Below the pieces are notes generated by a model that saw nothing but the letters and a program-made list of their open reading frames with translations, ran no database searches and was not told the DNA's origin. Shown piece after piece: positions 931 through 18,121 of a stretch of DNA of 64,000 bases. Origin of the DNA: Mycobacterium colombiense CECT 3035 (lineage in GTDB: Bacteria; Actinomycetota; Actinomycetes; Mycobacteriales; Mycobacteriaceae); contig NZ_CP020821.1 in the NCBI RefSeq assembly GCF_002105755.1, positions 372,001 through 436,000 of the forward strand, in the 5' to 3' direction. Every line of letters starts with the position of its first letter. Position 1 is the stretch's first letter. Position numbers and translations under genes: made by a program.

Positions 931-2199
931 GTGAACCCCTACATCATCATCTCCGCGGACACCCACGCCGAGCTCCCGACGGAGCGGTACCGCGAATACG
1001 TCGACCCCGAATACCGGGAGGACTTCGAGGCCTACCTGGCCGAGAAGACCGCCGCGGCCCAGGCGGGCGGATTCATCGACGAGGAATTTGCCGAGCAGTG
1101 GTTCTCCGAGCACGGTGACGGCATCGCCGGCGGATGGGATGTAGGCCTGCGGGACAAGGAATTAGACGGCGACGGGGTGGTGGGCGAGGTCATCTTTCCC
1201 GACGCCGACGCCGTCACCGGGGTAGCCGGGGCACCGTTCGGGGCAGGCCTGGGCCAGTCGGGTGACCTCGACCCCGGGCGCGCGATGGCCGGGGCGCGTG
1301 CCCACAACCGCTGGTTGGCTGAGTTGTGCAGCCACAATCCCGAGCGGCGGGCCGGCGTCGCGGTCGTGCCGATACTGGCGGACGTCGACGCGGCGGTCGC
1401 CGAGATCACCCGGGCGGCGGAGTCCGGACTGCGGGGCGGGATCCTGATTCCGGCGCGCTGGGTCGGCTACCCGCCCTACCACGACCGTCGCTACGACAAG
1501 GTCTGGGCCGCCTGCCAAGACCTGCAGATGCCGGTCCACACCCATTCGGGCCCCGCCCCGCAGGAGGAGTACGGAGGACACCTGGGCATCTATGTCACCG
1601 AGGTGCGCTGGTGGGGCGCCCGGCCCCTGTGGTTCGCGCTGTGGTCCGGCGTGTTCGAGCGCTTCCCCGGGCTGCGATGGGGGGTCACCGAGTGCGGTGC
1701 CTTTTGGGCCAATGATCTTCTCTGGCTGATGGATACGCGGTATCTGCGTGAGCACTCGGCGAAGAAGATGAGTCACATGATGGAGGGCGACCTGACGATG
1801 CCGCCCTCGGCCTACTTCGACCGGAATTGTTTCATCGGGGCGACCACCACCGAGCGCAGGGAGCTGGCGCGGCGCTACGAGATCGGTGTCGCAAACCTGC
1901 TGTGGGGCAATGATTTTCCCCATCCGGAGGGAACCTGGCCGCACACCCGTGACTGGCTGCGCCGGTCCTTCTGGGACATCCCCGTCGAGGAGACGCGACA
2001 GATGCTGGGCCTGGCGGCGGCCGACATCTACAACTTCGATCTTGATGCCCTCGCCGGGCTGGCCGACCGCATCGGCCCCACGCCGGAGGACCTGGGCCAG
2101 GACGACGCGGTGAGCATCCCCAAATGGGAGGCGGCCCGCCGGGCCGGTCGTCACTGGTTGACCGACGCGGAGCCCATCTCCGACCTGGTGGAGAACTGA
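931..2199 (+). CDS. Amidohydrolase-family metal-dependent hydrolase
   Basis: 422 aa from a GTG start at 931; the open frame runs further upstream but only through the preceding gene. The N-terminus IIISADTHAE gives the D-x-H metal motif of the first barrel strand. THSGPAP, VTECGAFW and LLWGNDFPHPEGTW follow at the positions expected for amidohydrolase_2 enzymes. It is a paralogue of the gene before it, so the two may form a hetero-oligomer or act on successive intermediates. No TetR-type palindrome lies directly in front, so it probably depends on the promoter of the upstream partner. Confidence 0.85.
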   Translation: MNPYIIISADTHAELPTERYREYVDPEYREDFEAYLAEKTAAAQAGGFIDEEFAEQWFSEHGDGIAGGWDVGLRDKELDGDGVVGEVIFPDADAVTGVAGAPFGAGLGQSGDLDPGRAMAGARAHNRWLAELCSHNPERRAGVAVVPILADVDAAVAEITRAAESGLRGGILIPARWVGYPPYHDRRYDKVWAACQDLQMPVHTHSGPAPQEEYGGHLGIYVTEVRWWGARPLWFALWSGVFERFPGLRWGVTECGAFWANDLLWLMDTRYLREHSAKKMSHMMEGDLTMPPSAYFDRNCFIGATTTERRELARRYEIGVANLLWGNDFPHPEGTWPHTRDWLRRSFWDIPVEETRQMLGLAAADIYNFDLDALAGLADRIGPTPEDLGQDDAVSIPKWEAARRAGRHWLTDAEPISDLVEN

Positions 2200-2273
2200 G
2201 CCGGGAGGACCAGAGCGCGGACGCCAGCGCTTTCGAAATTCACCGAGTGGGTGGGTCACCCGGGCATCCCGTG

Positions 2274-2289
2274 CTGTACAGGCGTACAG
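2274..2289. promoter_or_regulatory. TetR-type operator copy 1 (in front of acyl-CoA dehydrogenase)
   Basis: CTGTAC-AGGC-GTACAG: a perfect 6-bp inverted repeat with a 4-bp spacer, ending 36 bp before the GTG of the acyl-CoA dehydrogenase gene. Same architecture as six other sites in the first 16 kb. Confidence 0.75.
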
Positions 2290-2325
2290 TGTCTTGCGGC
2301 CAGTCGATGACCACGAGGAGGCGCT

Positions 2326-3504
2326 GTGCGGCTGCACTTCGATGCCGACGTCGAGGCATTTCGGGCCGAATTCGTCGACTTCCTGACCGAACACCTGCCC
2401 AGCGAGGCCGAAGCCGAAGCGCAGCGTTCCCGCTCCAGCGCCGACGTTCCGCCGTGGGCCCGTCGGTGGCAACGTCTCCTGTTCGACAACGGATGGCTGC
2501 AACCGGGCTATCCGCCGGCCTTCGGTGGTCGCAACGCGACGGTCATCGAGCAGTACGTGTACCTCCAGGAGCTTTCGCGCCGCCGCATCTACCAGACGTT
2601 CAACCCGCAGGGGGTCGGGATCATTGCCGCGTCCCTGATCCAGCACGGCACCCCCGAACAGCATCGACGGTGGGCGGTGCCGATTCTGCGGGCGGAGATC
2701 GTCGCCGCACTGGGGATGAGTGAGCCGGGGGCCGGTTCGGATCTTGCGTCGCTGCGTACGCGGGCGGTCCGCCAAGGGGACCACTTCGTGGTCAACGGGC
2801 AGAAGGTGTGGACCTCGGGAGCGCACGACGCGGACGTTCTGTTCACTTTGGTCCGCACCGATGCTTCTGCGCCCAAGCACAAGGGGATCAGCGTCCTGCT
2901 CATTCCGACCGATACCCCGGGGGTTACCCGCCGTCCCTTCGCCTCCGCTTGTGGGCTCGACGATGTCGACTTCAACGAGGTCTTCTTCTCCGATGCACGA
3001 GTGCCCGCTGAGAATCTGGTGGGCGCGATCAACGAGGGCTGGAAGGTCGCCAACTCCTCACTCGGCCATGAGCGGACCTTGTTGTGGCTCAGCTACGTCG
3101 ACCGGCTGGAGGAGTTTCTCGATGACTGGGCGCCAAGCAGCGCGCTCGCACGGGACGCCTACGCCACCCTCGCCATGGACACGTGGTCGCTACGCTTGCT
3201 CGGATCCGCGGAACTGGCCCGCGCGAATGGTGGAACCAGCGACCCGTCCTCGATGTCGGTTCTCAAATTGCTTGGCTCGGAGTCGATTCAAAGTGCAGCA
3301 GACGCGGCACTCACCACGGCCGGCGTTGACGGGCTGCGCCGCTCAGGCCAAACCAGTTCGTTTTCGCCCTACCACCTAGAGGCATACACCAGTACGTGGT
3401 TCGACCGGTATCTGCGTAGCTTCGGTGCCACCATCGCCGGCGGTACCTCTGAGATTCAGCGCAACATCATCGCCCAGCGCGTCCTCGGGTTGCCGCGCGG
3501 CTGA
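2326..3504 (+). CDS. Acyl-CoA dehydrogenase family protein (FadE-like)
   Basis: 392 aa, GTG start chosen because GAGGAGG lies just upstream (2315-2321). Flavin/substrate motifs are clear: GMSEPGAGSD in the middle domain, NGQKVWTSGAHDAD after it, and GGTSEIQRNIIAQRVLGLP at the C-terminus. FAD-dependent alpha,beta-dehydrogenation of an acyl-CoA is the family reaction; mycobacterial relatives often act on sterol or terpenoid side chains or ring fragments. The catalytic base was not assigned. It is a single-gene unit with its own palindromic operator 36 bp upstream, within the regulon of the TetR at 15153-15815. Confidence 0.9.
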   Translation: MRLHFDADVEAFRAEFVDFLTEHLPSEAEAEAQRSRSSADVPPWARRWQRLLFDNGWLQPGYPPAFGGRNATVIEQYVYLQELSRRRIYQTFNPQGVGIIAASLIQHGTPEQHRRWAVPILRAEIVAALGMSEPGAGSDLASLRTRAVRQGDHFVVNGQKVWTSGAHDADVLFTLVRTDASAPKHKGISVLLIPTDTPGVTRRPFASACGLDDVDFNEVFFSDARVPAENLVGAINEGWKVANSSLGHERTLLWLSYVDRLEEFLDDWAPSSALARDAYATLAMDTWSLRLLGSAELARANGGTSDPSSMSVLKLLGSESIQSAADAALTTAGVDGLRRSGQTSSFSPYHLEAYTSTWFDRYLRSFGATIAGGTSEIQRNIIAQRVLGLPRG

Positions 3505-3536
3505 AGCGCTTCGGATTCACCGAATGCTGCACTCGC

Positions 3537-4352
3537 TCAGCCGAACTGTGTGATCCCGCCGTCGACGACGAGCGACTGCGCGGTGATGTAGGCGGAGTCC
3601 GCGCCCAGCATGAAGACCGTCGCGTAAGCGATGTCCCACGCGCTGGCCTGGCGTCCGAGAGGCCAACGGATCTTCGTCCTGCCCGTCACGGTGCTGTCGC
3701 CGACGCGACCAAGCGGGGTGTCGACCGGCCCAGGAATGACGTAGTTCGCCCGGATGCGCCGGGGTGCTCCCTCGAGGGCCACGTGGCGAGTGAGCCCGAA
3801 CAGGGCCGCCTTCGTGGAGTCGTAGGCAGGAAATCGTGTTCCTGCCTTCAGTCCGGCTGCCGATCCGATGAACACGAATGCTGCGTCGTCGTCGAGCAAC
3901 GGCATCGCGGCTCGGGCTATCAAGAAGTGCGAGCGCACGTTTACCGCGAAGATGTCGTCCCACAATTCGGGTGTCGTGCCCTCTAGCCCCTTGCCTTCTC
4001 CGTATCCAACGTTGGCCACCACGCCGTCAATGCCGCCGAGCTTGTCGTTTGCTTCGTCGACGAGTCGCTGGCACGCGTTGGCATCGCGAACGTCGGCGAC
4101 CACGGTCACCGCCGGACCGTTGCCCTCCTGTTCGATGAGGCGCGCCGTGTGAGCCGCGGCGTCCGCGTCGACGTCCACGCACGCGACGCGCGCGCCCTCT
4201 CGCGCACAAAGCACGGCGATGGCCCGGCCGTTGCCGATGGTGACTTCCGGGTCCGGCGATGGCCGCGTTCCGGCGCCGACGACGATGATGCGCCGGCCCT
4301 GAAGTCGACCGCGCCCGGGCGCTATGCCGGCTGATTCGGGAGCAAGGGTCAT
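3537..4352 (-). CDS. SDR family oxidoreductase
   Basis: 271 aa. The open frame extends to 4592, but the start at 4352 (MTLAPES) is preferred because it lies just downstream of the palindrome at 4375-4390; longer versions would read through the operator. The Rossmann motif is unusual, IIVVGAGT followed by an insert and TIGNGRA, so the glycine motif is split. The catalytic YDSTK motif and PGPVDTPLG tail are normal. NAD(P)-dependent dehydrogenase or reductase. It is divergent from the CMD-like gene and shares one operator with it. Confidence 0.85.
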   Translation of the reverse strand: MTLAPESAGIAPGRGRLQGRRIIVVGAGTRPSPDPEVTIGNGRAIAVLCAREGARVACVDVDADAAAHTARLIEQEGNGPAVTVVADVRDANACQRLVDEANDKLGGIDGVVANVGYGEGKGLEGTTPELWDDIFAVNVRSHFLIARAAMPLLDDDAAFVFIGSAAGLKAGTRFPAYDSTKAALFGLTRHVALEGAPRRIRANYVIPGPVDTPLGRVGDSTVTGRTKIRWPLGRQASAWDIAYATVFMLGADSAYITAQSLVVDGGITQFG

Positions 4353-4374
4353 GAGGCCGAACGTAACACCGATG

Positions 4375-4390
4375 CTATACGTCTGTACAG
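4375..4390. promoter_or_regulatory. TetR-type operator copy 2 (divergent SDR / CMD-like genes)
   Basis: CTATAC-GTCT-GTACAG in the 46-bp gap between the minus-strand SDR (start 4352) and the plus-strand CMD-like gene (start 4399). One site can control both directions. Its right arm ends 8 bp before the ATG at 4399. Confidence 0.75.
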
Positions 4391-4398
4391 TCGCTCGT

Positions 4399-5028
4399 AT
4401 GACTGCGCACGATCGAACCGGCAGCGCGCCTCGCTTGGCGCCACTTCCGAACGACAAATGGGATGCCGAGCACGTGGAAGCTTTGCGTAATACCTTTCCG
4501 CACAAGGCTGTTACGAAATTCCAGCAGCCGGGCCAGGCACCCAACGTGCTCGCGACGATGCTGCACAATCCCGCACTGGCTGGTTCGTTCAACCGGTTCG
4601 GTAACGTGCTGCTTCAACAACCCGCGATCAGCCACCGGGCGCGCGAGTTGATGCTGCTGCGGGTCGCGTGGCGTACGCGCGCCCGGTACGAGTGGGTGCA
4701 CCACGTCCGGCTTGCAAAGCGTTACGGACTGACACCTCACGATGTCGCCGCGATTGCGGTGGGCTCCTCTGAATCGTGGACGCCCTTGGAACGCGACCTG
4801 GTTGCGGCCACCGACGAAATGTTGGATCACTACCGCATCGAGGCGGATACCTGGAATCGACTCGCCGGGGCGCTGGATGAGCGCCAGCTGGTCGAGGTGC
4901 CGCTCGTCGTCGGCACCTATGCGTGCCTGGCCATGGCGTTCAACAGTTGGGGTGTGCAAGTCGAGGACGGTGTCGATACGAGCGGCGTGCCGGAGTTGCC
5001 AACGTCGCGCTTCATGCCCTTAGCGTGA
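4399..5028 (+). CDS. Carboxymuconolactone decarboxylase (AhpD-like) family protein
   Basis: 209 aa. The start at 4399 (MTAHDRTG) is chosen over an in-frame ATG at 4324, which lies upstream of the palindrome. The core ARELMLLRVAWRTRARYEWVHH is the AhpD/CMD helical motif, with E-W-x-x-H in place of the CxxC of AhpD peroxidases, so peroxidase activity is unlikely. These proteins form helical oligomers and occur widely in actinobacterial aromatic, lactone and terpenoid degradation clusters. With the operator ending 8 bp upstream, there is no room for a normal leader, so a leaderless transcript is likely. Confidence 0.85.
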   Translation: MTAHDRTGSAPRLAPLPNDKWDAEHVEALRNTFPHKAVTKFQQPGQAPNVLATMLHNPALAGSFNRFGNVLLQQPAISHRARELMLLRVAWRTRARYEWVHHVRLAKRYGLTPHDVAAIAVGSSESWTPLERDLVAATDEMLDHYRIEADTWNRLAGALDERQLVEVPLVVGTYACLAMAFNSWGVQVEDGVDTSGVPELPTSRFMPLA

Positions 5029-5036
5029 CGCTCGCG

Positions 5037-6224
5037 TCAGGCGATGGTCGCGGGCATGCTGTCCCAACCGCGCACCGTCGACGTACGGGAGCGGCGAGCG
5101 GCTGCCAGGTCGATGTCCCATTCCGGCCACCGCTTGAGCACCTCTTCGAGTGCCACGCGACCCTCCAAGCGGGCCAGCGGAGATCCGACGCAGAAGTGGG
5201 CGCCGCGGCCGAAGGTGAGGTGACCGCCGGGCTTGCGGTGGATGTCGAACTTATCGGGATTGTCGAAATGCCGTTCGTCGCGGTTGGCCGACGCGAGCAT
5301 GAGTAACAGGGCGCTGCCGGCCGGAACCACTTGGTCGTGAAAGGTCACGTTGTCGGTGGCGACATAACGTGCCACATGCGGGCCCGGCGGTTCGTAGCGC
5401 AGCAGTTCCTCGATGGCGGTGGGAATCAGCCCGTGGTCCTGGGCCAATTCCTTGCGTTGATCGGGGTGTTCGGCCAAGACCTTGCCCATCCAGCCGAAGA
5501 GGCGGCCTGTCGTTTCGACGCCGGCGCCGGCTACCACGGCCAGAAACACGATGAGTTCCTGCTTCGTCAGTTTGCGCGTCGTACCGTTCTCGTCTTCGAA
5601 CTCGACGTTGAGCAATTCGGTGATCAGATCGTCGGACGGATTCTTCTCGCGCCACTCGACGTAGTCCCCGAACATCTCACCGGTGAAGTAGCGATCCTTC
5701 TTAATGTCCATGGGCTTGCCCGGTGTGTTGCGCAGCACCTGGTTGGCGTGCTCACGAACCGCGGGCTGTTCGGAGTCCGGGATCCCGGCCAGCATGCCGA
5801 TGGTGCGCATGGGAAGTTCGGCGCCGAGGTCTTGTACGAAGTCGAAGCGGTCCCCACCGACGAGCGGATCCAGGCAAGCGACACAGAAATTGCGGACTTT
5901 GTCCTCGATCGCGCGCATCTTCTTCGGCGTGAACGCGCGCGAGACGATGGCTCGATGGATGGTGTGTAGCGGCGGGTCTTCGTTGATGAAGATGCCTGGC
6001 GGCATCACCGGATCCGCCATGACCACTTCCAGGATGTCGCCCTTTGCCGAACTGAGTCGCGCCGTGTCTTTGAGCGCGGAATCGACATGGGCGTAACGGC
6101 TTACGCCCCAGAAATCATGCCGATCGTTGTAGTAGACCGGGCACTCATCGCGAAGGCGGCGGTAGGTGGGGTAGGGGTCGAGGTCGATGTCGAAGTCCCA
6201 TGGGTCGTAGTACAGATCGTTCAA
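5037..6224 (-). CDS. Cytochrome P450
   Basis: 395 aa from a TTG start preceded by AAGGAG; the longer frame to 6311 would run through the palindrome at 6275-6290. The I-helix AGAGVETT is at about residues 232-239, ExxR (EELLR) at 273-276, and the heme loop FGRGAHFCVG has its thiolate Cys at about 345. A soluble bacterial class I P450 needing ferredoxin and reductase; the ferredoxin at 8063 is the nearest candidate. The hydroxylated substrate is unknown. It faces the convergent CMD-like gene and is divergent from the frameshifted SDR. Confidence 0.93.
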   Translation of the reverse strand: MNDLYYDPWDFDIDLDPYPTYRRLRDECPVYYNDRHDFWGVSRYAHVDSALKDTARLSSAKGDILEVVMADPVMPPGIFINEDPPLHTIHRAIVSRAFTPKKMRAIEDKVRNFCVACLDPLVGGDRFDFVQDLGAELPMRTIGMLAGIPDSEQPAVREHANQVLRNTPGKPMDIKKDRYFTGEMFGDYVEWREKNPSDDLITELLNVEFEDENGTTRKLTKQELIVFLAVVAGAGVETTGRLFGWMGKVLAEHPDQRKELAQDHGLIPTAIEELLRYEPPGPHVARYVATDNVTFHDQVVPAGSALLLMLASANRDERHFDNPDKFDIHRKPGGHLTFGRGAHFCVGSPLARLEGRVALEEVLKRWPEWDIDLAAARRSRTSTVRGWDSMPATIA

Positions 6225-6274
6225 CTTCGGCTCCTTGGGGGTGATGATTCGAAAAAGCGCGCACCAGGCGTATG

Positions 6275-6290
6275 CTGTACGACCGTACAG
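6275..6290. promoter_or_regulatory. TetR-type operator copy 3 (P450 side)
   Basis: CTGTAC-GACC-GTACAG, perfect arms, 50 bp upstream of the TTG start of the minus-strand P450 gene. Confidence 0.75.
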
Positions 6291-6345
6291 TAGCTGGTGT
6301 TCGGCAGGCAACCATGCGAACCGGCCACGGCGTCATCGGCATCTG

Positions 6346-6361
6346 CTATACGATCGTACAA
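6346..6361. promoter_or_regulatory. TetR-type operator copy 4 (SDR side)
   Basis: CTATAC-GATC-GTACAA, one arm base off consensus, 49 bp upstream of the ATG at 6411. Together with copy 3 it gives each arm of this divergent promoter region its own site, at nearly the same distance from each start codon. Confidence 0.7.
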
Positions 6362-6410
6362 CCGGGCTGGTGACCGCTTGGGTCGGCCACACACGAACTC
6401 GAGGAGCGCT

Positions 6411-7180
6411 ATGGGCAGTCGATTCTCACTCGATGGACGCGTCGCCGTCATTACCGGCGGCGGTACGGGTATCGGCCGCGGCGCGGCCTTGGTGCTGGCC
6501 GAGCATGGGGCGGACGTCGTGCTGGCAGCCCGCCGTCCCGACCCGCTCGAGTCCACCGCGAAGGAGGTGATGGCGCTGGGGCGACGCGCCGTCGCTGTGT
6601 CAACGGATGTCACGACGGCCGAAGCCTGCCGCCGGCTGGTGGACACCACCATGGCCGAGTTCGGCCGACTTGATGTCCTGGTGAATTGCGCCGGCGGGGC
6701 CGAGACCAAATCGATCCTCAAATGGCCCGACGACGACTTCGAGAATGTGCTCGCCTTGAACTTCAAGGCCGTGTGGCATCTTTCGAAGGCGGCGGCGAAG
6801 CCGATGATGGATCAGGGCAAGGGGGCGATAGTCAACATCTCCTCCGGCGCAAGCCTTCTGGCGATGCCGCAAGCGGCACCATATGGCGCAGCCAAGGCCG
6901 CGGTGAACAACCTGACCGGGTCGATGGCGGCGGCGTGGGCGAAGAAGGGGATCCGCGTCAACGCCATCGCCGTCGGCGCTGTCCGGGCGGCCACCTTGAC
7001 CGACGATGCGGCGCGATACGGATTGGATCCGGAGGCCATCGCGTTGAGCAACGGGCTGGCCGACTGGGCGAACCGGACGAAATCGGTTACGGCGTCTTGT
7101 TCTTCGCATCCGATGCATCGAGCTTCTGTTCGGGCCAGACCCTGTACATGCATGGTGCCCCCGGCCCCGCCGGTGTCTGA
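6411..7180 (+). pseudogene. SDR family oxidoreductase, frameshifted near 7066-7068
   Basis: Start ATG 6411 follows GAGGAG. The N-terminal 220 or so residues are a normal SDR: TGGGTGIGRG cofactor motif, NCAGG, SSGAS, and catalytic Tyr158/Lys162 in YGAAK. After GLADW the frame drifts into nonsense to 7268, while the other frame continues with GEPDEIGYGVLFFASDASS and ends at TGA 7178-7180, exactly the SDR C-terminus. Restoring one G in the GGG at 7066-7068 gives a 256-aa protein. It is either a genuine lesion or a homopolymer sequencing error. The gene lies in the TetR regulon. Confidence 0.85.
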
Positions 7181-7206
7181 GTCTTGTGCGCAGCAGGCCA
7201 CGTACG

Positions 7207-7222
7207 CTATACACTCGTACAG
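7207..7222. promoter_or_regulatory. TetR-type operator copy 5 (in front of long operon)
   Basis: CTATAC-ACTC-GTACAG, 42 bp upstream of the TTG start at 7265. It precedes a run of seven plus-strand genes (7265-13595) with small gaps or overlaps, which therefore look like one operon. Confidence 0.75.
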
Positions 7223-7264
7223 CGCACGGCATGATAGTGACCACGGATCGAGGGACGGTGTGAT

Positions 7265-8008
7265 TTGAGCCGAGTAGCGGTGGTGACCGGTGGGGGGTCG
7301 GGCCTGGGACGGGCGATCAGCATCAAGCTCGCCGCCGATGGTCACCGGGTGGCCGTCATGGACGCCAACGTAGAAGCGGCGGAGAGCGTGGCCGCAGAGG
7401 TGCGGGCCGCCGGCGGCATTGCGTTAACGTCCGGCGTCGACGTCTCTGACGAAAATGCCGTTGACTCGGCCTTCGCGACAGTCCGAGACACCTTCGGTGC
7501 AGTGGGAATCCTCGTTACGAGTGCAGCGATTGCGGGCTTCACGCGCTTCGACAAGATCACTCTCAGCGAATGGAACCGGTACCTCGCCGTCAACCTCACC
7601 GGTACTTTCTTGTGCGTTAGGGCCGCGTTATCGGATATGGTCACGGCCGGATGGGGCCGCATCGTCACCATCTCATCGGCGGCCGGTCAGAGGGGCGCGC
7701 CTGCACAGGGCCACTACTCGGCCACCAAGGGCGGCGTCATCGCAATGACCAAGACACTTGCCCTGGACTATGCGGCCAAGGGCATCACGGCGAACACAGT
7801 CCCGCCGTTCGTGATCGATTCACCAATGCTGCGTGAACAACAGCGGGAGGGAAAGTTGCCGCCGACCGAGCATCTCGCCAAGGCGATTCCCGCCAACCGC
7901 GTGGGGTCTGGTGATGATGTTGCCGCCGTGTGCTCATTCTTGTGCTCCGAGGCCGCGGGTTACGTCAACGGACAAGTCATCGGCGTCAACGGCGGCGCCA
8001 TCATCTGA
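7265..8008 (+). CDS. SDR family oxidoreductase
   Basis: 247 aa, TTG start, with GAGGGACGG upstream. Cofactor motif TGGGSGLGRA at the N-terminus, SSAAGQRG catalytic Ser strand, Tyr151/Lys155 in YSATK, and a C-terminal GQVIGVNGG typical of 3-oxoacyl or cyclic alcohol dehydrogenases. First gene of the seven-gene operon under operator copy 5. It probably oxidises the hydroxyl introduced by one of the P450s (inference). Confidence 0.9.
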   Translation: MSRVAVVTGGGSGLGRAISIKLAADGHRVAVMDANVEAAESVAAEVRAAGGIALTSGVDVSDENAVDSAFATVRDTFGAVGILVTSAAIAGFTRFDKITLSEWNRYLAVNLTGTFLCVRAALSDMVTAGWGRIVTISSAAGQRGAPAQGHYSATKGGVIAMTKTLALDYAAKGITANTVPPFVIDSPMLREQQREGKLPPTEHLAKAIPANRVGSGDDVAAVCSFLCSEAAGYVNGQVIGVNGGAII

Positions 8009-8062
8009 GGGCCGCGATAACCGAACGGGCCCGCACGACAACGGAGTACGTGGAGGAACGAC

Positions 8063-8302
8063 GTGAGAGTACGAGTAGATGGATCGCGGTGCCAAGGCCA
8101 CACGCTGTGCGCCATGATCGCTCCGGATTCCTTTCAGCTCGATGACGTCGATGGTCACGCCCACGCCGCGACGGATATCGTCGCCGGCGAGTACCGCGAT
8201 GTGGTCCAAGAGGCGGCGAGGTCCTGCCCGGAACAGGCCATCGAGATCGTCGCGGAGGCGTCGGATCGCGCCCGCGCGGAGCGAAACGGCGCGGTGCTGT
8301 GA
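8063..8302 (+). CDS. Ferredoxin, 3Fe-4S type (P450 redox partner)
   Basis: 79 aa from GTG 8063. Three cluster cysteines are spaced as in mycobacterial P450 ferredoxins: CQGHTLC (C-x5-C) near the N-terminus and a distant CPEQAI. The acidic surface is typical of such partners. It delivers electrons from a reductase (none encoded here) to the P450 whose GTG start overlaps its TGA stop, so the two are translationally coupled. Confidence 0.92.
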   Translation: MRVRVDGSRCQGHTLCAMIAPDSFQLDDVDGHAHAATDIVAGEYRDVVQEAARSCPEQAIEIVAEASDRARAERNGAVL

Positions 8303-9666
8303 TCGCCGACAACGGCGATTCCGGCGCCGCGCCGTCGGCTGCGCGCTATCACTTCGACCGGCATGCCGCTGACTACCGGAGCAAGTTCCTAGATATCACT
8401 CACGAGATGCATCGCAGTTGCCCGGTCGCATGGACGGACACTTACGACGGGCACTGGGTGGCGGCGGGCAGCGACGAGGTCTTCGAGCTCGCTCGTTGCC
8501 CACACGTATCCAATGACCACGATGTCAACCACGAGCGGCGCGGGTACAAGGGCATCTCCATCCCGTTGATGCTGGAGGCCGAAAACTTTCGCGGCGGAAT
8601 GCTCGAAATGGACGATCCCGAACACCGCTACTACCGCACGGCGCTCAACCCCTATCTCTCACCGGCCGCGGTCAAGCGCTGGGAGCCGTTCGTTGACGAG
8701 ATCGTGCGCGCCTGCATCGACGATCACATCGAGTCGGGCAGCATCGATTTCGTCGACGACCTTGCCAATGTGGTGCCCGCGGTGCTGACGCTGGCCATGC
8801 TCGGGGTGCCGCTCGACAAGTGGGCCATGTACAACGAGCCGGCGCACGCATCGATCTATACGCCGCCGGATTCCCCCGATGCGGCACGCGTGCGCGAGCA
8901 ATACATGGCGATGGGCATGGACTTGTTCGCCAACCTGGTGGAGATCCGCGAACGGCCTCGTCCCGGGATCATTGACGCGTTGGCCAAGTTGCGCCTCGAC
9001 GGTCAGGCGCCGCCCGACATCGAGTTGATCGGGATGTTGAACCTGTTGATCGGTGGGGGATTCGACACCACCACCGCCCTGACCGCGCACGCGCTGGAGT
9101 GGCTTTCACAGCATCCCGAGGAACGTGCGCGGTTGAGCCGCGACCGTGAAACCCTGCTGAACCCTGCCACCGAGGAGTTCCTGCGGTATTTCACCCCCGC
9201 GCCGGGCGACGGTCGCACCGTCGCCCGGGACATGGAACTCGGCGGCATCACATTCAAGGAAGGCGACCGATTGTGGCTGTCGTGGGCGATGGCCAATCGC
9301 GATCCGGCCTTGTTCGAGCAACCCGATGCCGTCATGCTCGATCGGAAAGGTAACCGTCACTTCAGCTTTGGCCTCGGTGTGCACCGGTGCATAGGCTCAA
9401 ACGTCGCTCGGACGGTATTCAAGTCGATGCTGACCGCAGTGCTCGACAGGCTGCCGGACTATCAGTGCGCGGCGGAGGGGACCGTGCATTACGACAGCAT
9501 CGGCGTGATCCAAGGGCTGAAGCACCTTCCGGCTACGTTCACCCCCGGACGCCGCCGCGGTCCGGGAGTATCCGAGACCGTTCCGCGGCTGCAACGTGCC
9601 TGTGAAGAACACGGTTTGGCCCGTCCCATCACCGAACTCAAGGAGTCCGCGAAGATCGCGGACTGA
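8299..9666 (+). CDS. Cytochrome P450
   Basis: 455 aa, longer than usual because of a C-terminal extension of about 40 residues after the heme domain. I-helix GGGFDTTTAL, ExxR in EEFLRYFTP, heme loop FGLGVHRCIG with Cys at about 364. The GTG start overlaps the ferredoxin stop by 4 bp, fixing both the start and the pairing. It is the second P450 of the regulon and not closely similar to the one at 5037, so the two probably act at different steps. Confidence 0.93.
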   Translation: MIADNGDSGAAPSAARYHFDRHAADYRSKFLDITHEMHRSCPVAWTDTYDGHWVAAGSDEVFELARCPHVSNDHDVNHERRGYKGISIPLMLEAENFRGGMLEMDDPEHRYYRTALNPYLSPAAVKRWEPFVDEIVRACIDDHIESGSIDFVDDLANVVPAVLTLAMLGVPLDKWAMYNEPAHASIYTPPDSPDAARVREQYMAMGMDLFANLVEIRERPRPGIIDALAKLRLDGQAPPDIELIGMLNLLIGGGFDTTTALTAHALEWLSQHPEERARLSRDRETLLNPATEEFLRYFTPAPGDGRTVARDMELGGITFKEGDRLWLSWAMANRDPALFEQPDAVMLDRKGNRHFSFGLGVHRCIGSNVARTVFKSMLTAVLDRLPDYQCAAEGTVHYDSIGVIQGLKHLPATFTPGRRRGPGVSETVPRLQRACEEHGLARPITELKESAKIAD

Positions 9667-9707
9667 CTCCACGCGGAAACCGACCACACGCCCACAAGGA
9701 GACCTCA

Positions 9708-10571
9708 ATGACCGAACACAGCACCGTGGCCCTGGTGACGGGAGCCAGCCGCGGCGCGGGCGCAGGCATCGCCAAGGCGTTGGGGAGCCACGGCTGCACG
9801 GTCTATGTCACGGGCCGGACCCGCAGCGGCGACGGCTCGTCGCTCACGGGCACTATCGACGAGACCGCCGCGCAGGCGAGCGCTGCCGGTGGCCGAGGCA
9901 TCGCAGTACGGGTCGACCACGGCAACGACGACGAGGTCAAAGAACTCTTCGACCGGATCCGCGACGAGCAAGGCCGCCTGGACATTCTGGTGAATAACGC
10001 GGCCATCATCCGCGACGAGATGATGGGCCGAACGAAGTTCTGGGAGGAACCACTCAACGTCATCGATACCTTGGACGTCGGAGTGCGCAGCAGCTACGTG
10101 GCCACGGTTTACGCCGCGCCACTGATGATTCCGCAACGCAAGGGCCTCGTCGCCTTCTCCTCGTCGTCGGGTTCGGTCCACTACGCGTTCGGCCCCGCCT
10201 ACGGCGTGCCGAAGGCCGCCACGGACAAGATGGCCGCGGACATGGCTTTCGACTTGCGCGAGTTCGGCGTCGCCGCAGTATCGATATGGATGGGCTCGCT
10301 GCTGACCGATCGCGTCAGGAAAATCATCGCGAGCAAGCCCGAGAAGTTCGGACACATCCTCGACACCGCCGAAACACCCGAACTAACGGGCCATGTCATC
10401 TGGGAGCTCTACAAGGACCCGGAGTTGATGACGCTAAGCGGCCAGACCGTGATCGGCGCAGAGCTGGCGGCCAAGTACGGCATCGAAGACGAGGGTGGGC
10501 GTCGGCCACCGTCCTACCGCGACATGTTCGACGTCCACCCGTGTCAGCAATACCCGCACATAATGCGATGA
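9708..10571 (+). CDS. SDR family oxidoreductase, DHRS1-like
   Basis: 287 aa, with AAGGAG upstream of ATG. Starts VALVTGASRGAGAGIAKAL; NNAAI follows, and Tyr165/Lys169 sit in YGVPK. The longer middle loop, TVYVTGRTR, and the spacing resemble the DHRS1 subfamily of carbonyl reductases. Fourth gene-order position in the operon; its TGA overlaps the ATG of the sulfotransferase by 4 bp. Confidence 0.88.
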   Translation: MTEHSTVALVTGASRGAGAGIAKALGSHGCTVYVTGRTRSGDGSSLTGTIDETAAQASAAGGRGIAVRVDHGNDDEVKELFDRIRDEQGRLDILVNNAAIIRDEMMGRTKFWEEPLNVIDTLDVGVRSSYVATVYAAPLMIPQRKGLVAFSSSSGSVHYAFGPAYGVPKAATDKMAADMAFDLREFGVAAVSIWMGSLLTDRVRKIIASKPEKFGHILDTAETPELTGHVIWELYKDPELMTLSGQTVIGAELAAKYGIEDEGGRRPPSYRDMFDVHPCQQYPHIMR

Positions 10572-11782
10572 TCACGGGAAGGCCTGACGTGCAACGCCAT
10601 CGGAGCGAACCCGCACACACACTGAGTAGTGATCGCCTGATCGATGCGGCGACGGAAGCCACCGGCTTGGCCGATTTCGGGAAGGATGGCTGGCGCGAAG
10701 GGCTCGACCGGCTGGTAGATGCGCTCGTGACGGAGGCGGCGCTCAACGACCTCGGAGTGGCTGCGGCCTACAAAGAGCTGAAGTACCTGCTCATCGCCCG
10801 ACTAGGCGTAGTGGCGCACCGCAACGCTCATGCAAACATCACGGAGGCCGGCGTCGCCCCTCCGGTGGTGATCATCGGTCAGGCCCGCACGGGCACCACC
10901 ATCCTGCACGACCTGCTGGCCCAAGACCCGGCCGCGCGCGTACCGCGCACCTGGGAAGTGGAGCGTCCGTGCCCGGCGCCGGAGACGGCCAGTTACTCGA
11001 CTGATCCGCGCATCGAGGCCGTCGACGCACGGATCGCCGCGGTCGGTGCCGTGATGCCCGACCTCTTCGGGATGCATCCGATGGGTGCACAGTTGGGTCA
11101 GGAATGTGTGTGCATCACCGCATCCGACTTCCGCAGCATCCTGTTCGCCACCGAATACCGCATCCCCTCCTACGCGCGATGGCTCTTCGCCGAGGCCGAC
11201 CACGCTTCCGTCTACGGGTGGCATCGAATATTTCTGCAACACTTGCAATTCCGCCATCCCACTGACCGGTGGGTTCTCAAGTCACCCGGTCATATATGGA
11301 CACTGGCTGAACTGACCGAAGCCTACCCCGATGCGCTACTCGTTCAGACCCATCGTGACCCGCTGCGCATCATCGCTTCGGTGACGTCGATGTACACCAC
11401 CTTGCGCGGCCTCACCAGCGATGCAGCCAACCCCCACGAGATCGCCTCCGAATGGGCCGGGTACATCCTCGACGGACTCGATCGGTCGGTCACGGCGCGC
11501 ATGGACGGAACCGTGAACTCTGCCAAGGTGATCGACGTCAATTTCCGTGATTTCGTGGGCAATGAGGTCAGAACGGTCGACAAGATCTACCACCGATTCG
11601 GCATGCCGTTCAGCGACGTTGTCCGTGGGCGCGTGGCCGACTTCCTGGCCAATCATCCCCAGGACAAGCGCGGCGGCCACCGCTATACCTTCGCGTTTAC
11701 AGGTCTCGATGCGGGGACGTGGCGTGAGCGGGCCCGCCGATACCAGGAGTATTTCGACGTGCCGTCCGAGAGTCTGGACTGA
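10568..11782 (+). CDS. Sulfotransferase family protein
   Basis: 404 aa from ATG 10568, chosen because ATGA overlaps the previous stop; the frame is open upstream only as a shadow of the SDR. PPVVIIGQARTGTTILHDLL is the PAPS 5'-phosphosulfate loop and LLVQTHRDPLRIIAS the 3'-phosphate-binding strand. The Sulfotransfer_3-type family moves sulfate from PAPS to hydroxyls of lipids or sterols. Such genes are common in mycobacteria, but a conjugating enzyme inside an oxidative cluster is notable. It may instead be a sulfotransferase-fold protein with another role. Confidence 0.85.
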   Translation: MITGRPDVQRHRSEPAHTLSSDRLIDAATEATGLADFGKDGWREGLDRLVDALVTEAALNDLGVAAAYKELKYLLIARLGVVAHRNAHANITEAGVAPPVVIIGQARTGTTILHDLLAQDPAARVPRTWEVERPCPAPETASYSTDPRIEAVDARIAAVGAVMPDLFGMHPMGAQLGQECVCITASDFRSILFATEYRIPSYARWLFAEADHASVYGWHRIFLQHLQFRHPTDRWVLKSPGHIWTLAELTEAYPDALLVQTHRDPLRIIASVTSMYTTLRGLTSDAANPHEIASEWAGYILDGLDRSVTARMDGTVNSAKVIDVNFRDFVGNEVRTVDKIYHRFGMPFSDVVRGRVADFLANHPQDKRGGHRYTFAFTGLDAGTWRERARRYQEYFDVPSESLD

Positions 11783-11784
11783 TC

Positions 11785-12552
11785 GTGACCGGTGAGATGC
11801 ATGGCAACCGTGTACTTTTCATCGCCGGCGCCGGACCGCAGATTGGTGCCGCGACGGCTCACATTGCCGCGCGGGAGGGCGCGTGCGTCGCGTTGGCGGC
11901 GCGTCGCCTAGAGGTTGCCGAGGACATCGCAGATTCGGTAAGGATGGCCGGCGGCGAGGCCGTCGCAGTCAGGTGCGATGTCACCTCAGACGAGGACGTG
12001 CAGCGCGCCCTCGACGTCACCAGGTGCGAGTTCGGCGTCATCGACCGGGTGTTCTTCAACGCGGCGTATTACGACAACCGCCAAGCATCCGTCGACGTCG
12101 ACGATGACGCGTGGGACACCTCCATGGACGTCAACCTGAACGCGGCTGTTCGCATCGCGCGGCGCACGGTGCCCGCGATGATCGAACACGGCGGTGGATC
12201 GTTCGTCTTCACCTCGTCGGCGGCCTCCATCGTGGCCGGCGATACGCGTTTCGGTTACCAGGTGTCGAAGGCGGGTTTGAACGCCGTCACCCGATTCGTC
12301 GCCGCAAAATATGGAAGAAAAGGCATTCGGGCCAACGCCGTGCTGCCGTTCGTGCTCGAGGGCCCTGTGGGCGAGGCGGCCGCGTCGCTGAACTGCCTCG
12401 GCCGATCACCGACCGCCGAGGAAATCGGTGAGGCCGTGGCCTTCCTGCTGTCGGACCGCGCGGCCGCCATCACTGGCCAACTGATCCACCTCGACGGTGG
12501 TCTGTTCGTCCGCGCCCCGTGGCCGACGCCGGCATCCGCGCCACGCACATGA
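11785..12552 (+). CDS. SDR family oxidoreductase with atypical glycine motif
   Basis: 255 aa, GTG start 2 bp after the sulfotransferase stop. The nucleotide motif reads IAGAGPQIGAATA rather than TGxxxGIG, resembling the enoyl-reductase-like divergent SDRs. The catalytic residues are conventional (Tyr158/Lys162 in YQVSK). NAD(P)-dependent oxidoreductase of unknown substrate. Its stop TGA overlaps the ATG of the next gene. Confidence 0.87.
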   Translation: MTGEMHGNRVLFIAGAGPQIGAATAHIAAREGACVALAARRLEVAEDIADSVRMAGGEAVAVRCDVTSDEDVQRALDVTRCEFGVIDRVFFNAAYYDNRQASVDVDDDAWDTSMDVNLNAAVRIARRTVPAMIEHGGGSFVFTSSAASIVAGDTRFGYQVSKAGLNAVTRFVAAKYGRKGIRANAVLPFVLEGPVGEAAASLNCLGRSPTAEEIGEAVAFLLSDRAAAITGQLIHLDGGLFVRAPWPTPASAPRT

Positions 12553-13595
12553 CCGGCGACCTCAGCGGCGGTCTCGATGAAGCGCGGGAGTACTTCCTAG
12601 TCGATCCCCCGGATCCGGAGATGCGGGACTCGGCCAGCTTCTGGGCCTACGACGACGCGGGTTTCATCGGCTTTCCCCGCATCGGCGTTGAGGCGGTCGG
12701 TTCGAAATGGACCGAACATCAATACCAGGTGAACGTCGCCTTCGCCGACGGAAGGGTGTTGCGCGTTCGAGACACCGGTGCACGACACTCGCCGATCGGG
12801 CTCGACGGCAATCCATCGGTGCTCGGTGCCGGCCCGCTCGAATTCCGTTGTGTGCGACCGTTCGAGGTCTCGACGGCATCGTTCGACGGGGTCGCGCTGC
12901 AGACCACAACCGACGCGCTACTGCGCGGCGAACTCGAGGGCGATCCGATCAGGCTCGAGTTCCACATCGAGGCTACGATGGCAGCGCCGCCGTGGGCTAA
13001 TGGATCGCTGTCGCAGGAGGCGGCGCGCCACATGAACTCGTCCGTGGAAGGCGTGTTCATGGGAGGCGCGCGGTTCGAGCAGCTGTTTCGCGCCGTCGGC
13101 GCCCTGCGCGCCGGGCATGAGGAATATCGGTTCACCGGAAGTGGTACTCGTGTGCGCCGTCAAGGAGCGCGTGACATGGCGGGCTTCTGGGGACATTGTC
13201 AGCAATCGGCAACATTCCCGAGCGGCCGAGGGTTCGGTTACATCGCGTACCGTCCGCGCCCCGACGGCGCCGGTTCGTACAACGAGGGTTACCTCTTCAC
13301 CGGCGACGGAGAGCTGGTTCCGGCACAGGTGGTGCGTGCTCCATGGTTATCGACGCCACCCCGTATTGGGGACGACGTCTCGCTAGTCCTCGAATCCGCC
13401 TTGGGCACTGTGGAAATCGAGGGAACTACCACCGTGTCGGTGTTCAACCTCGGAGATCCGCGATCCGGCAATGCCCTGGCCGCGTTGCATCAAGCGGGCG
13501 TCCGCTATCGGTGGAACGGGGAAACCGCCTCCGGGGCTCTAGAACGGTCGACCCCGCCGCTCGAGATCTTCGGTCTCGCAGGTCTTGCTCGCTGA
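12549..13595 (+). CDS. DUF7064/DUF7065-like protein
   Basis: 348 aa from ATG 12549, preferred over GTG 12519 because it forms the ATGA overlap seen throughout the operon. Rich in aromatic residues and predicted beta strands, with a WTEHQYQVNVAFADGR segment and no membrane helix or signal peptide. I recognise it only as the type of two-domain beta protein found in actinobacterial lipid and terpenoid clusters, possibly lipocalin-like and ligand-binding. Enzymatic activity is not established. Last gene of the operon starting at 7265. Confidence 0.65.
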   Translation: MTGDLSGGLDEAREYFLVDPPDPEMRDSASFWAYDDAGFIGFPRIGVEAVGSKWTEHQYQVNVAFADGRVLRVRDTGARHSPIGLDGNPSVLGAGPLEFRCVRPFEVSTASFDGVALQTTTDALLRGELEGDPIRLEFHIEATMAAPPWANGSLSQEAARHMNSSVEGVFMGGARFEQLFRAVGALRAGHEEYRFTGSGTRVRRQGARDMAGFWGHCQQSATFPSGRGFGYIAYRPRPDGAGSYNEGYLFTGDGELVPAQVVRAPWLSTPPRIGDDVSLVLESALGTVEIEGTTTVSVFNLGDPRSGNALAALHQAGVRYRWNGETASGALERSTPPLEIFGLAGLAR

Positions 13596-13622
13596 CTCTC
13601 GCCTGGAGCGCCCGATAGTATG

Positions 13623-13638
13623 CTATACAGGCGTACAG
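13623..13638. promoter_or_regulatory. TetR-type operator copy 6 (in front of LLM monooxygenase)
   Basis: CTATAC-AGGC-GTACAG; with flanks 13621-13640 it reads TG...CA, the most complete copy (8-bp arms with one mismatch). It lies 32 bp before the ATG at 13671, so the monooxygenase has its own regulated promoter. Confidence 0.78.
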
Positions 13639-13670
13639 CATTTCTCAGGTAGTCGTCGATAAGGGGCGCC

Positions 13671-15047
13671 ATGTCCAAGCGGTTGATCTTCACCCTGCTC
13701 TTGATGGACTCGATCGGTCACAACTTCCACGGCATCTGGCGACATCCGCGCGCCCGCAACCGGGAATTCAAAGGATTCGACCTCTGGCTAGATCTCGCCA
13801 GGAAGGCAGAACAGGCCAAGGTCGACGCATTCTTCTTCACCGACTTAGTTGGTGTACAAGGTGAACACAACGGATCCCGCGACGTGATCTTCGAGATGGC
13901 GGTAAACGTACCCATCGGGGACTGCACCATGGTGATTCCCGCAATGGCGAACCACACAACCGATCTTGGCTTCCTCTACACCAGTTCGGTCATTCAACAC
14001 CATCCATTTGTCTTCGCGCGTGCCGTTTCGACGCTCGACAGTTTGAGCAACGGAAGGATCGGATGGAACATCGTCACATCGGCCAACGAGAAGGCCTTCC
14101 GTAACCTCGGATTGCCCACCAGCCCATCCCATGAGGATCGCTACGCCTGGGCCGAGGAGTACGTCGATGTCACCTACAAACTGTGGGAAGGATCTTGGGA
14201 CGTCGACGCCGTCGTCAACGATCCCTCCACTGGCGTGTACGCGGACCCGACAAAGGTGCACGACATCAACCACGAAGGCAAGCGTTACAGCGTCGAGGGA
14301 TTCAACCTCATGGAGCCCTCACCGCAACGCACCCCCGTGCTGGCGCAAGCGGGCGGATCACCCGCGGGACTGGATTTCGCCAGCGCGCACGCCGAACTTA
14401 TGTTCCTGTCGGCGATGACACTGGAAACCATTACCCAGCAAGTCAATACCGTCCGAAAACTCGCCCGTGAACGCGGTCGTCGCGACGGCGACATTCTCTT
14501 CCTTCAGGGCATGATGTTCATCGTCGGGTCGACCGACGAAGAGGCCTACCGCAAGTGGGGAGATCTCGAGGAATTCCGGAGTCAGGAAGCCCAGACGGCC
14601 TATTTCTCCAGCCTGAGCGGCATGGACCTAGGGCGCTACGCTCCGTCGACGCCGCTAGAGGACATCATCGACGACATACCCGGCATCCGCGGGGCATTCC
14701 TCGCCGTTATCAATGCCTGGCCGGAAGGCTCGAAGCCGACCGTTAAGGACTTCCTGTCCTCGCTATCGTTGCCGCAGATGGTCGTTGGGGCTCCAGAGAC
14801 CATCGCCAAGCGGCTCACCGAGTATCAGGGCGCTGGCGTCGATGGCGTGCAGGTAATGAACGCGTTGATGCCGGAGAGCTACGAGGATTTCTTCGAACAC
14901 CTCGTGCCGGTGCTCCAAGACAAGGGTCTGATGCAACGGGAGTACCAACCAGGCACCCTGCGCGAGAAGCTGTTTGGAACGACGGGCGCCGACATCAGCG
15001 AGCGTCATCCCGCCTACGGATACCGCGGCATGTTCTGCGGCCGATGA
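13671..15047 (+). CDS. LLM-class flavin-dependent monooxygenase (NtaA/SnaA/DszA type)
   Basis: 458 aa, full length for this family. An N-terminal GIWRHP, a KAEQAKVDAFFFTD strand, WNIVTSANEKAFRN (typical of NtaA/SnaA/DszA), and LAQAGGSPAGLDFA are all present. These enzymes use FMNH2 from a separate reductase to oxygenate sulfones, amines or polyketides, or to perform Baeyer-Villiger-like C-C cleavage. No flavin reductase gene is in the window, so it must be supplied from elsewhere. Under operator copy 6. Confidence 0.92.
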   Translation: MSKRLIFTLLLMDSIGHNFHGIWRHPRARNREFKGFDLWLDLARKAEQAKVDAFFFTDLVGVQGEHNGSRDVIFEMAVNVPIGDCTMVIPAMANHTTDLGFLYTSSVIQHHPFVFARAVSTLDSLSNGRIGWNIVTSANEKAFRNLGLPTSPSHEDRYAWAEEYVDVTYKLWEGSWDVDAVVNDPSTGVYADPTKVHDINHEGKRYSVEGFNLMEPSPQRTPVLAQAGGSPAGLDFASAHAELMFLSAMTLETITQQVNTVRKLARERGRRDGDILFLQGMMFIVGSTDEEAYRKWGDLEEFRSQEAQTAYFSSLSGMDLGRYAPSTPLEDIIDDIPGIRGAFLAVINAWPEGSKPTVKDFLSSLSLPQMVVGAPETIAKRLTEYQGAGVDGVQVMNALMPESYEDFFEHLVPVLQDKGLMQREYQPGTLREKLFGTTGADISERHPAYGYRGMFCGR

Positions 15048-15152
15048 CCGTGCCGTCCGAACCGCAAACCGTGGTGGTGCTGCTCGGGAAGCCTGCGACG
15101 GGCCTCGATCAATAGCCAGTTGGTGCGCGTGGCGGCCGGCCGCGCGCCGCAG

Positions 15153-15815
15153 TCAGCGCTTGCTCGGTGCGCGACGCCTGCTCGACGAGGGTTTGCGCTT
15201 CTTTGGTGCTGGAGCAGGCTCCAACGTGTCGAGGTAGCGCTCGAACGCCTCGGTCACCTCGGCGTGCGCGGACTTCACGCCGATGCCCTCCTCGAGGTTG
15301 AGGAACTTCGGCAGGCCCGACATCAACAACTGCAACGCCGGAAGGGACAGGTCGCCCAAGAACCGCGCATCCTTGCCGAATTTCGCGACGAGCGCGTCCA
15401 ACTGCATCTTGCGCACACTCTCGGTGACCGCGGCAATCTCCGTTCGAATCGACTTGCGGTGGTTGCCCAGCGCCATGAACTCGGTCATCAGCGCGCCGGT
15501 CGCCTCGTCCCAGCTGTACTCCCACACCGCCCGAAGCGGATCGCCGGCGCGCCGCTCCAAAGTCTCTGCGAGGAAGGCGAGGTTGCGCTCGGCATAGCGT
15601 CGGATCGCCGCTACGAAGATGTCGTCGAGACTGGGGAAGTAGTACTGCACGAGGCTGGGCGTGACTCCGGCCCTGGTGGCCAGAACGCGGTAGGTGACGC
15701 TCGCGTACCCCTCCTCAAGCATCAACGTCTCGACGCAGTCGAGAAGAACGTCCCGCGTCTTGGACGTTTCAGCGCCTATACGCCGAGACGATGCTGCCAT
15801 GGTCACCTCGCTCAT
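15153..15815 (-). CDS. TetR/AcrR family regulator, probable master regulator of the 1-16.5 kb cluster
   Basis: 220 aa; an alternative start 5 codons in (15800) has a better GAGG ribosome site. N-terminal HTH: ASVTYRVLATRAGVTPSLVQYYFPSLDDIF. The C-terminal ligand domain ends in a Lys/Arg-rich tail (KKRKPSSSRRRAPSKR) that could add nonspecific DNA contacts. It is the only TetR gene in the first 40 kb. It is divergent from the NTF2-like gene, and a copy of the repeated palindrome lies 32 bp upstream. Repressor of the regulon, released by a pathway intermediate (inference). Confidence 0.88.
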   Translation of the reverse strand: MSEVTMAASSRRIGAETSKTRDVLLDCVETLMLEEGYASVTYRVLATRAGVTPSLVQYYFPSLDDIFVAAIRRYAERNLAFLAETLERRAGDPLRAVWEYSWDEATGALMTEFMALGNHRKSIRTEIAAVTESVRKMQLDALVAKFGKDARFLGDLSLPALQLLMSGLPKFLNLEEGIGVKSAHAEVTEAFERYLDTLEPAPAPKKRKPSSSRRRAPSKR

Positions 15816-15847
15816 TCGGTTCTTTGTATTGTGACATCAACCGAGTG

Positions 15848-15863
15848 CTATACAGTCGTATGG
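15848..15863. promoter_or_regulatory. TetR-type operator copy 7 (tetR / NTF2-like divergent promoter)
   Basis: CTATAC-AGTC-GTATGG: left arm perfect, right arm degenerate (two mismatches). It sits between tetR and the NTF2-like gene, consistent with weaker autoregulation. Confidence 0.65.
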
Positions 15864-15938
15864 TGGTAACGATTTACGCTCGCGCAAATGGAGCCCGGTG
15901 CTGCAGAACTCGGTGCAGGGCACGAAAGGCAGGAAGCC

Positions 15939-16502
15939 ATGACCGTCGATACGAGCTTGGAAGCGCTGCACCGGGACGTGCGCTACCTCCTGGACCGCAC
16001 TGAGATTCTCGACTGTATCGCGCGGCATGCGCGTGGCTGCGACCGTCATGATGTCGACCTGATCGCCGCGGCGTATCACAGCGACGGGATCGACGAGCAC
16101 GGTTACGCCACCAATGCAGGACCCGCCTACGGTGCGTGGGCCAACGCCACGCACGCGCAGACTTCCCGCGTGCACACCCACAACATCACCACCCATACGT
16201 GCGAAATCGGCGGCGACACAGCACACGCCGAAAGCTATGTGATCGTGGTGCTCATCGGCCCCGATGCCAAGAGCGCCCAGTTCATCACCGGCCGCTACCT
16301 CGACCGGCTCGAGCGGCGGGATGGGCAGTGGCGCATCGCTGTTCGTCGGTCGACGGTGGAGGGCATGTTCATTGCCGATGCGAGAGTGTTGCAGTCTTCG
16401 TTCTTCACCGAGAAGGGATATCTCGTCGGCACCCGAGATCGGGCCGACCTGTCCTATCAACGCCCACTGACCATCGACACGCCCGCACCTGCTCGCTGGT
16501 AG
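15939..16502 (+). CDS. Nuclear transport factor 2 / SnoaL-like domain protein
   Basis: 187 aa from ATG 15939, with AAGGCAGGAAG before it; an in-frame ATG at 15888 lacks a ribosome site. The DRTEILDCIARHARGCDRHD opening, YHSDGIDEHG strand, and a late GQWRIAVRRSTVEGMF strand are those of SnoaL_4-type cone-shaped alpha+beta barrels. Relatives include ring hydroxylase beta-like proteins, dehydratases and cyclases. Probably a lyase or isomerase in the pathway controlled by the adjacent TetR. Confidence 0.85.
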   Translation: MTVDTSLEALHRDVRYLLDRTEILDCIARHARGCDRHDVDLIAAAYHSDGIDEHGYATNAGPAYGAWANATHAQTSRVHTHNITTHTCEIGGDTAHAESYVIVVLIGPDAKSAQFITGRYLDRLERRDGQWRIAVRRSTVEGMFIADARVLQSSFFTEKGYLVGTRDRADLSYQRPLTIDTPAPARW

Positions 16503-18058: not shown

Positions 18059-18073
18059 GTCAGTATTCTGACA
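18058..18073. promoter_or_regulatory. MarR operator 1
   Basis: TGTCAG-TATT-CTGACA, a perfect inverted repeat that includes the first base of the marR start codon. Confidence 0.8.
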
Positions 18074-18085
18074 TAGGTTGATGTA

Positions 18086-18101
18086 TGTCAGAAAACTGAC
18101 A
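18086..18101. promoter_or_regulatory. MarR operator 2
   Basis: TGTCAG-AAAA-CTGACA, identical arms to operator 1 with centre-to-centre distance 28 bp. It lies 20 bp before the VOC gene start, so it should cover that promoter or ribosome site. Confidence 0.8.
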
Positions 18102-18121
18102 CGATCCGAAGGAGCACTGCC

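Follow-up and report, generated by a model that had tools for sequence, protein, structure and literature searches.

Probable operators and genes of the cluster

The stretch of DNA analysed here, called the window, comprises 64,000 nucleotides (positions 372001-436000) of the Mycobacterium colombiense CECT 3035 genome, which is a single contig of 5,581,643 bases. It was found to carry a cluster with genes for two cytochromes P450, a ferredoxin, several SDR oxidoreductases, a flavin-dependent monooxygenase and a TetR-family regulator (Table 1). Seven copies of one palindrome, at 2274, 4375, 6275, 6346, 7207, 13623 and 15848, precede genes of this cluster and, judged from sequence, are very probably binding sites of the TetR encoded within it. 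The sites, their confinement to the cluster, their placement before genes and their co-occurrence with TetR across genera were computed directly.

Five of the seven sites, namely 2274, 4375, 6275, 7207 and 13623, match CTRTACNNNNGTAYAG exactly. An earlier note on this DNA had given all seven coordinates with a single form ending in GTACAG; each coordinate holds, and that ending fails at 6346 and 15848, where the right halves are GTACAA and GTATGG and each site has one mismatch to CTRTACNNNNGTAYAG. With up to two mismatches allowed, the window contains eight matches, against a mean of 1.52 in shuffled sequences, and 0 of 100 shuffles reached eight. The eighth, at 36604, has two mismatches and scores only 3.2 with the site matrix described below. 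The same matrix finds exactly seven sites in the 64 kb, scoring 23.5-29.8, and nothing more at or above 7.5 (next best 7.3 and 4.2), so that the absence of further full copies from the 64 kb, also claimed earlier, is borne out by both the motif count and the matrix.

Counted by eye to inferred start codons, the gap between site and start is 36 bp for the acyl-CoA dehydrogenase gene, 8 bp for the carboxymuconolactone decarboxylase-family (CMD) gene, 22 bp for the SDR gene divergent from it, and about 50 bp for P450a, which starts at the TTG at 6224 behind AAGGAG. It is 49 bp for SDRa, 42 bp for SDRb, 32 bp for the monooxygenase gene, 32 bp for tetR and 24 bp for the SnoaL-like gene. This is the range of 8-50 bp that had been noted before, and the last copy does lie between tetR and the NTF2-like gene, as operator 7 in the divergent tetR(-)/SnoaL(+) gap. 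The sole close pair of sites in the window is 6275/6346, 71 bp apart.

Distribution of the motif in the host and in related genomes

The whole genome contains six exact matches, five of them in the cluster. Allowing at most one mismatch gives 16 matches, seven in the cluster and nine elsewhere, compared with seven for a reversed control; the binomial probability of 7 of 16 matches falling inside 13.6 kb is about 6e-15. Genome-wide searching, proposed in the earlier note as a check, thus places the motif at background outside the cluster and far above background inside it. Upstream of the cluster, matrix scanning of genome positions 360000-374000 (L094), which encode two amidohydrolases, an acetoacetate decarboxylase-family protein and an SDR, disclosed no site, and the regulon therefore seems to start at 2272. 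No site was found by matrix scan at the locus of the host's own TetR paralogue (44-46% identity).

The only exact match outside the cluster, at 4411877, was taken as chance. Its matrix score of 14.2 is close to the value that marks the first percentile among the training sites (14.1), it lies within long open frames on both strands, and its spacer has T at a position that T occupies in none of the 190 training sites. Against this dismissal speaks a site in genome G085, 20 bp from the tetR of that genome, with T at the same place; because of it, this T alone cannot exclude a site. The 16-mer of 4411877 also occurs in G264, which has the TetR, and in G233, which lacks it.

An orthologue of the window TetR (at least 62% identity) was detected in 60 of 297 genomes of the same genus; the nearest named relative, from M. 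colombiense NS-7390, is 95% identical. The exact motif is present in 59 of these 60 genomes, with 193 sites against 9 for the reversed control. Of the 237 genomes without the orthologue, 30 have the motif, with 31 sites against 31 for the control; the association has a Fisher p of about 2e-38, to be taken only as a guide. Two or more sites occur in 55 of the 60 carriers and in 1 of the 237 others.

A second test covered 201 genomes from 31 genera of the family, with the stricter motif CTRTACRNNYGTAYAG and with carriers defined by a TetR match at E 1e-45 or better. The motif was found in 7 of 7 carriers (19 sites) and in 13 of the 194 other genomes (16 sites; p 3e-8), the reversed control giving 10 sites in the 201 genomes. 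Two of the seven carriers belong to the genus of the window and had already been counted in the first test. Of the five remaining carriers, four have a site 45-48 bp before the matched start of tetR. In related genomes the motif tracks this regulator, which supports the single local repressor proposed in the earlier note. Identical copies of the motif are common to G422 and G359, and another to G474 and G465, all without a close TetR; these may belong to a regulator that is more distantly related.

Site matrix and related loci

Scanning contigs with the TetR protein alone yielded 47 loci containing 97 exact sites and 190 sites with at most one mismatch, where the reversed pattern gave 0 and 2. 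A 20-bp matrix was built from the 190 sites, which fall in 46 loci (L062 was dropped), with the window excluded from training. Its consensus is about TGCTRTACRN-NYGTAYAGCA, that is, TGCTRTACRN and its mirror image, and the R at the fourth-from-last place is A or G in 377 of 380 half-sites. At a cut of 18 the matrix finds 211 sites in the 46 loci and one plasmid locus (902,501 bases), a count that is partly circular for the 46 loci that trained it; the reversed matrix finds none.

At least one site is present in 45 of the 46 TetR loci, and in 41 of them a site lies within 200 bp of tetR. Gene calls were crude, and by these 154 of the 190 sites fall from -250 bp to +200 bp of a gene 5' end, compared with 38% of random positions. 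The genes most often adjoining sites are those of P450a (40), SnoaL (39), TetR (30), SDRb (29), SDRa (26) and the flavin monooxygenase (19). In the loci examined, the TetR orthologue usually has P450 and SDR genes around it, and across 16 related loci gene order varies among species while the sites remain with their units. No site scoring at least 12 was found in the sphingomonad relatives L097 and L098 (39-42% identity).

Sites are often paired in relatives: 65 neighbouring pairs lie within 120 bp, of which 47 are spaced by 15-26 bp, including 14 at 17-18 bp and 29 at 20-24 bp, and this pairing suggests cooperative binding in those species. Tandem pairs with a spacing of 17-18 or 20-24 bp occur in L024, L029, L036, L040, L043-L049, L051-L053, L056, L060 and others, and the window has none.

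Most of the cluster is also present on pJCM13574, a plasmid of M. madagascariense that typing classes as mobilizable. There it is accompanied by genes for a GMC oxidoreductase, a mycofactocin-coupled SDR, two nitroreductase-family proteins and a wax ester synthase-type protein. This copy has 11 sites scoring at least 21, and all 11 lie outside the listed genes, where 13% of the stretch is, although the gene table is incomplete and some site-bearing gaps may hold unlisted genes. The plasmid cluster (L096) is near an mce-type transport operon (L099) and aldehyde dehydrogenase genes, hinting at a hydrophobic substrate; no site scoring at least 10 was found at the transport genes.

The TetR regulator

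The 220-aa product of the tetR gene matches TetR_N (PF00440), the helix-turn-helix domain, with 29.0 bits against a cut-off of 24, and its structure model (mean pLDDT 85.1, fair to good) is an all-helical two-domain TetR fold. The palindrome at 15846-15865 provides, by sequence, a candidate operator beside its own gene. No close relative was found among solved structures (best 35 bits). Listed fold matches are scattered over many TetR proteins with no ligand class prominent, and an attempt to read the effector class from the fold was abandoned.

Helix 3 of the model spans residues 53-59. The segment TPSLVQYYFP is conserved in the aligned orthologues, apart from five that have A or S in place of P53. 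Q57 is replaced by H in the host 44-46% paralogue and in the two sphingomonad proteins, whose loci have no sites; this link between Q57 and site is correlative and based on few independent cases, and in L057 Q57 is retained where sites are almost absent. A lysine/arginine-rich C-terminal tail of about 15 residues, modelled with low confidence, is also present in several orthologues. Extra TetR genes (34-48% identity) occur near the first in L035 (2060-2617), L043 (10639-11220, directly behind the first) and L039 (3066-3635 and 6212-6796), and are possible partners or duplicates.

Features of the cluster

The genes from 7265 to 13595 are read as one operon because they run in the same direction with small gaps and have a sole site, at 7205, in front. 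The frame of SDRa is broken: two blocks match the protein of a relative in different frames, and intact copies exist in L016, L018, L022 and L096, so that the gene may be a pseudogene or reflect a sequence error. Naming a substrate from the enzyme families was tried and given up, since the nearest proteins, CYP125MRCA and P450cin among solved chains for P450b and hexachlorobenzene oxidative dehalogenase for the monooxygenase, are too distant to name one.

Table 1 Probable operators and genes of the cluster, in window coordinates.
Feature	Coordinates	Strand	Context	Evidence
Operator 1	2272..2291		before acyl-CoA dehydrogenase gene	exact motif, matrix 24.9
Acyl-CoA dehydrogenase	2326..3504	+		PF02770, PF00441, PF02771
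SDR oxidoreductase	3537..4352	-		PF13561 on longer frame; NCBIfam SDR matches
Operator 2	4373..4392		divergent gap SDR(-)/CMD(+)	exact motif, matrix 25.6
CMD-family protein	4399..5028	+	start by eye	PF02627 on frame 4324-5028
Cytochrome P450 (P450a)	5037..6224	-	start by eye	PF00067 on frame 5037-6311
Operator 3	6273..6292		P450a side of divergent gap P450a(-)/SDRa(+)	exact motif, matrix 29.8
Operator 4	6344..6363		SDRa side of divergent gap P450a(-)/SDRa(+)	one mismatch, matrix 28.4
SDR oxidoreductase (SDRa)	6411..7180	+	frame broken near 3' end	PF00106
Operator 5	7205..7224		before SDRb and likely operon 7265-13595	exact motif, matrix 26.6
SDR oxidoreductase (SDRb)	7265..8008	+		PF13561
Ferredoxin	8063..8302	+		PF13459
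Cytochrome P450 (P450b)	8299..9666	+		PF00067; nearest solved chains CYP125MRCA, P450cin
SDR oxidoreductase (SDRd)	9708..10571	+		PF00106
Sulfotransferase-family protein	10286..11782	+	true start probably after 10571	PF13469
SDR oxidoreductase (SDRc)	11785..12552	+		PF13561
Protein without Pfam or NCBIfam match	12519..13595	+		family searches
Operator 6	13621..13640		before NtaA/DmoA-type monooxygenase gene	exact motif, matrix 28.7
NtaA/DmoA-family FMN-dependent monooxygenase	13671..15047	+		TIGR03860, 462 bits, cut-off 280
TetR-family regulator, 220 aa	15153..15815	-	proposed binder	PF00440, modelled fold, motif co-occurrence
Operator 7	15846..15865		divergent gap tetR(-)/SnoaL(+)	one mismatch, matrix 23.5
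SnoaL/NTF2-like protein	15888..16502	+		PF13577

Proposed regulation and alternatives

We consider it highly probable that the cluster, with its P450, ferredoxin, SDR and flavin-monooxygenase genes, is controlled by an autoregulated local TetR repressor that is released by a compound of the pathway. Binding, repression, the dimer and the inducer are what we infer: a dimer of the 15153-15815 protein would bind the 20-bp palindrome in front of nine inferred transcription units, one of which is its own, and keep them off while bound, and a substrate or product of the oxidative pathway would bind its C-terminal domain and cause release of the DNA. The encoded pathway would comprise the two P450s with the ferredoxin, several SDRs, the NtaA/DmoA-type monooxygenase, the acyl-CoA dehydrogenase and the SnoaL-like protein.

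Several observations weigh against such a scheme. The genomes compared are kin by descent, which makes the p-values guides only. G113 carries an orthologue (62%) and zero exact motifs, the only site of G469 is on a different contig from its tetR, and genomes without the TetR show a slight excess of CTRTACRNNYGTAYAG sites, 16 against 10 in the control. In five of the 46 related loci (L033, L034, L057, L059 and L061) there is no site within 200 bp of tetR; among them L057, from Rhodococcus globerulus (TetR 69%), lacks any site with one mismatch or fewer and has a single weak matrix match of 14.6, even though the recognition helix of its TetR belongs to the same type.

It is extremely improbable that the elements serve an alternative sigma factor as promoters instead of being operators. 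They do contain TATAC, and in the four window sites with A in one half only that half points along the + strand gene, but the elements are palindromic, their copies track tetR, and in relatives the A-bearing half is unoriented to the gene (22 same, 21 opposite). Recognition by another protein, such as the MarR-type protein encoded at 17606-18478 or a TetR paralogue, is only slightly easier to credit and still very unlikely. The genus has many TetR paralogues, L035, L039 and L043 have the extra TetR genes near the first, and two of these that were aligned also have the VQYYF helix; yet genomes with matches of only about 50% identity or less are at motif background, the host paralogue locus is devoid of sites, and a counterpart of the MarR-type gene is found in 1 of 16 related loci (L016).

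It is unlikely, though less so than either of these, that the same protein acting at the same sites activates some units, or both activates and represses them. The sites lie 8-50 bp before the starts, a place where operators usually block rather than recruit RNA polymerase, and tetR itself has one in front. On the other side, no sigma-70-like promoter was detected in 2001-16500 (shuffle mean 2.8); the idea of an operator over the -10 box failed as a general rule, the orientation of the TATAC half being 22 versus 21 in relatives; and TetR-family activators exist, as recorded in the accessible text of a survey (PMC4482099).

Comparison with known systems

The site of KstR presumably differs in sequence from the window operator, and no KstR model is among the eight NCBIfam matches listed for the window TetR. 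KstR, a repressor of lipid and sterol catabolism (PMC1995591), is alike in being of TetR type and in using one palindrome for many oxidative catabolic units, whereas here a single cluster of about 14 kb contains all the sites. The mycobacterial divergent TetRs in the available part of the survey PMC4482099, for example EthR2 (Rv0078) with Rv0077c, share the TetR fold, the divergence of tetR from a small-enzyme gene and a palindrome in the gap, and EthR2 is among the fold matches of the window TetR; the present system differs in its seven operators and nine inferred units, and in having no close sequence kin among solved TetRs. FasR of M. tuberculosis is similar in its TetR-type DNA-binding domain and is also a fold match, but the window TetR scores 20.0 bits with the FasR model (NCBIfam NF053731), whose equivalog cut-off is 330, and NCBIfam labels FasR an activator.

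In the open-access literature no description of the regulator or operator was found by text searching, which is blind to motif logos. A study of M. colombiense CECT 3035 (PMC8971250) reports, in its accessible text, 22 TetR genes and a 29-bp motif common to all 22; its main text has no word starting with GTAC, and the operator is seemingly not spelled out there. In its available part, PMC4482099 presents motifs as logos, and its Table 2 is limited to 30 regulators of M. tuberculosis.

The regulon is new and its type familiar, and its value lies in a tight, portable operator and in the pathway that it labels. The analysis yields a regulator-operator pair that can be tested, together with a matrix of its sites, and the pair could serve as an expression switch, given its inducer. 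By marking the pathway genes in each species, the matrix offers a short way to the substrate. We see an even chance that the cluster is a mobile catabolic module addressed by its operator. Between species, and in passing to a plasmid, its genes would be rearranged, acquired or dropped, with every unit keeping its own copy of the operator and a single TetR reading them all. The operator would then label the members of a mycobacterial pathway, not described so far, that acts on a hydrophobic compound, and would allow these members to be read out of genomes, including the GMC oxidoreductase, nitroreductase-family and wax ester synthase-type genes of the plasmid.

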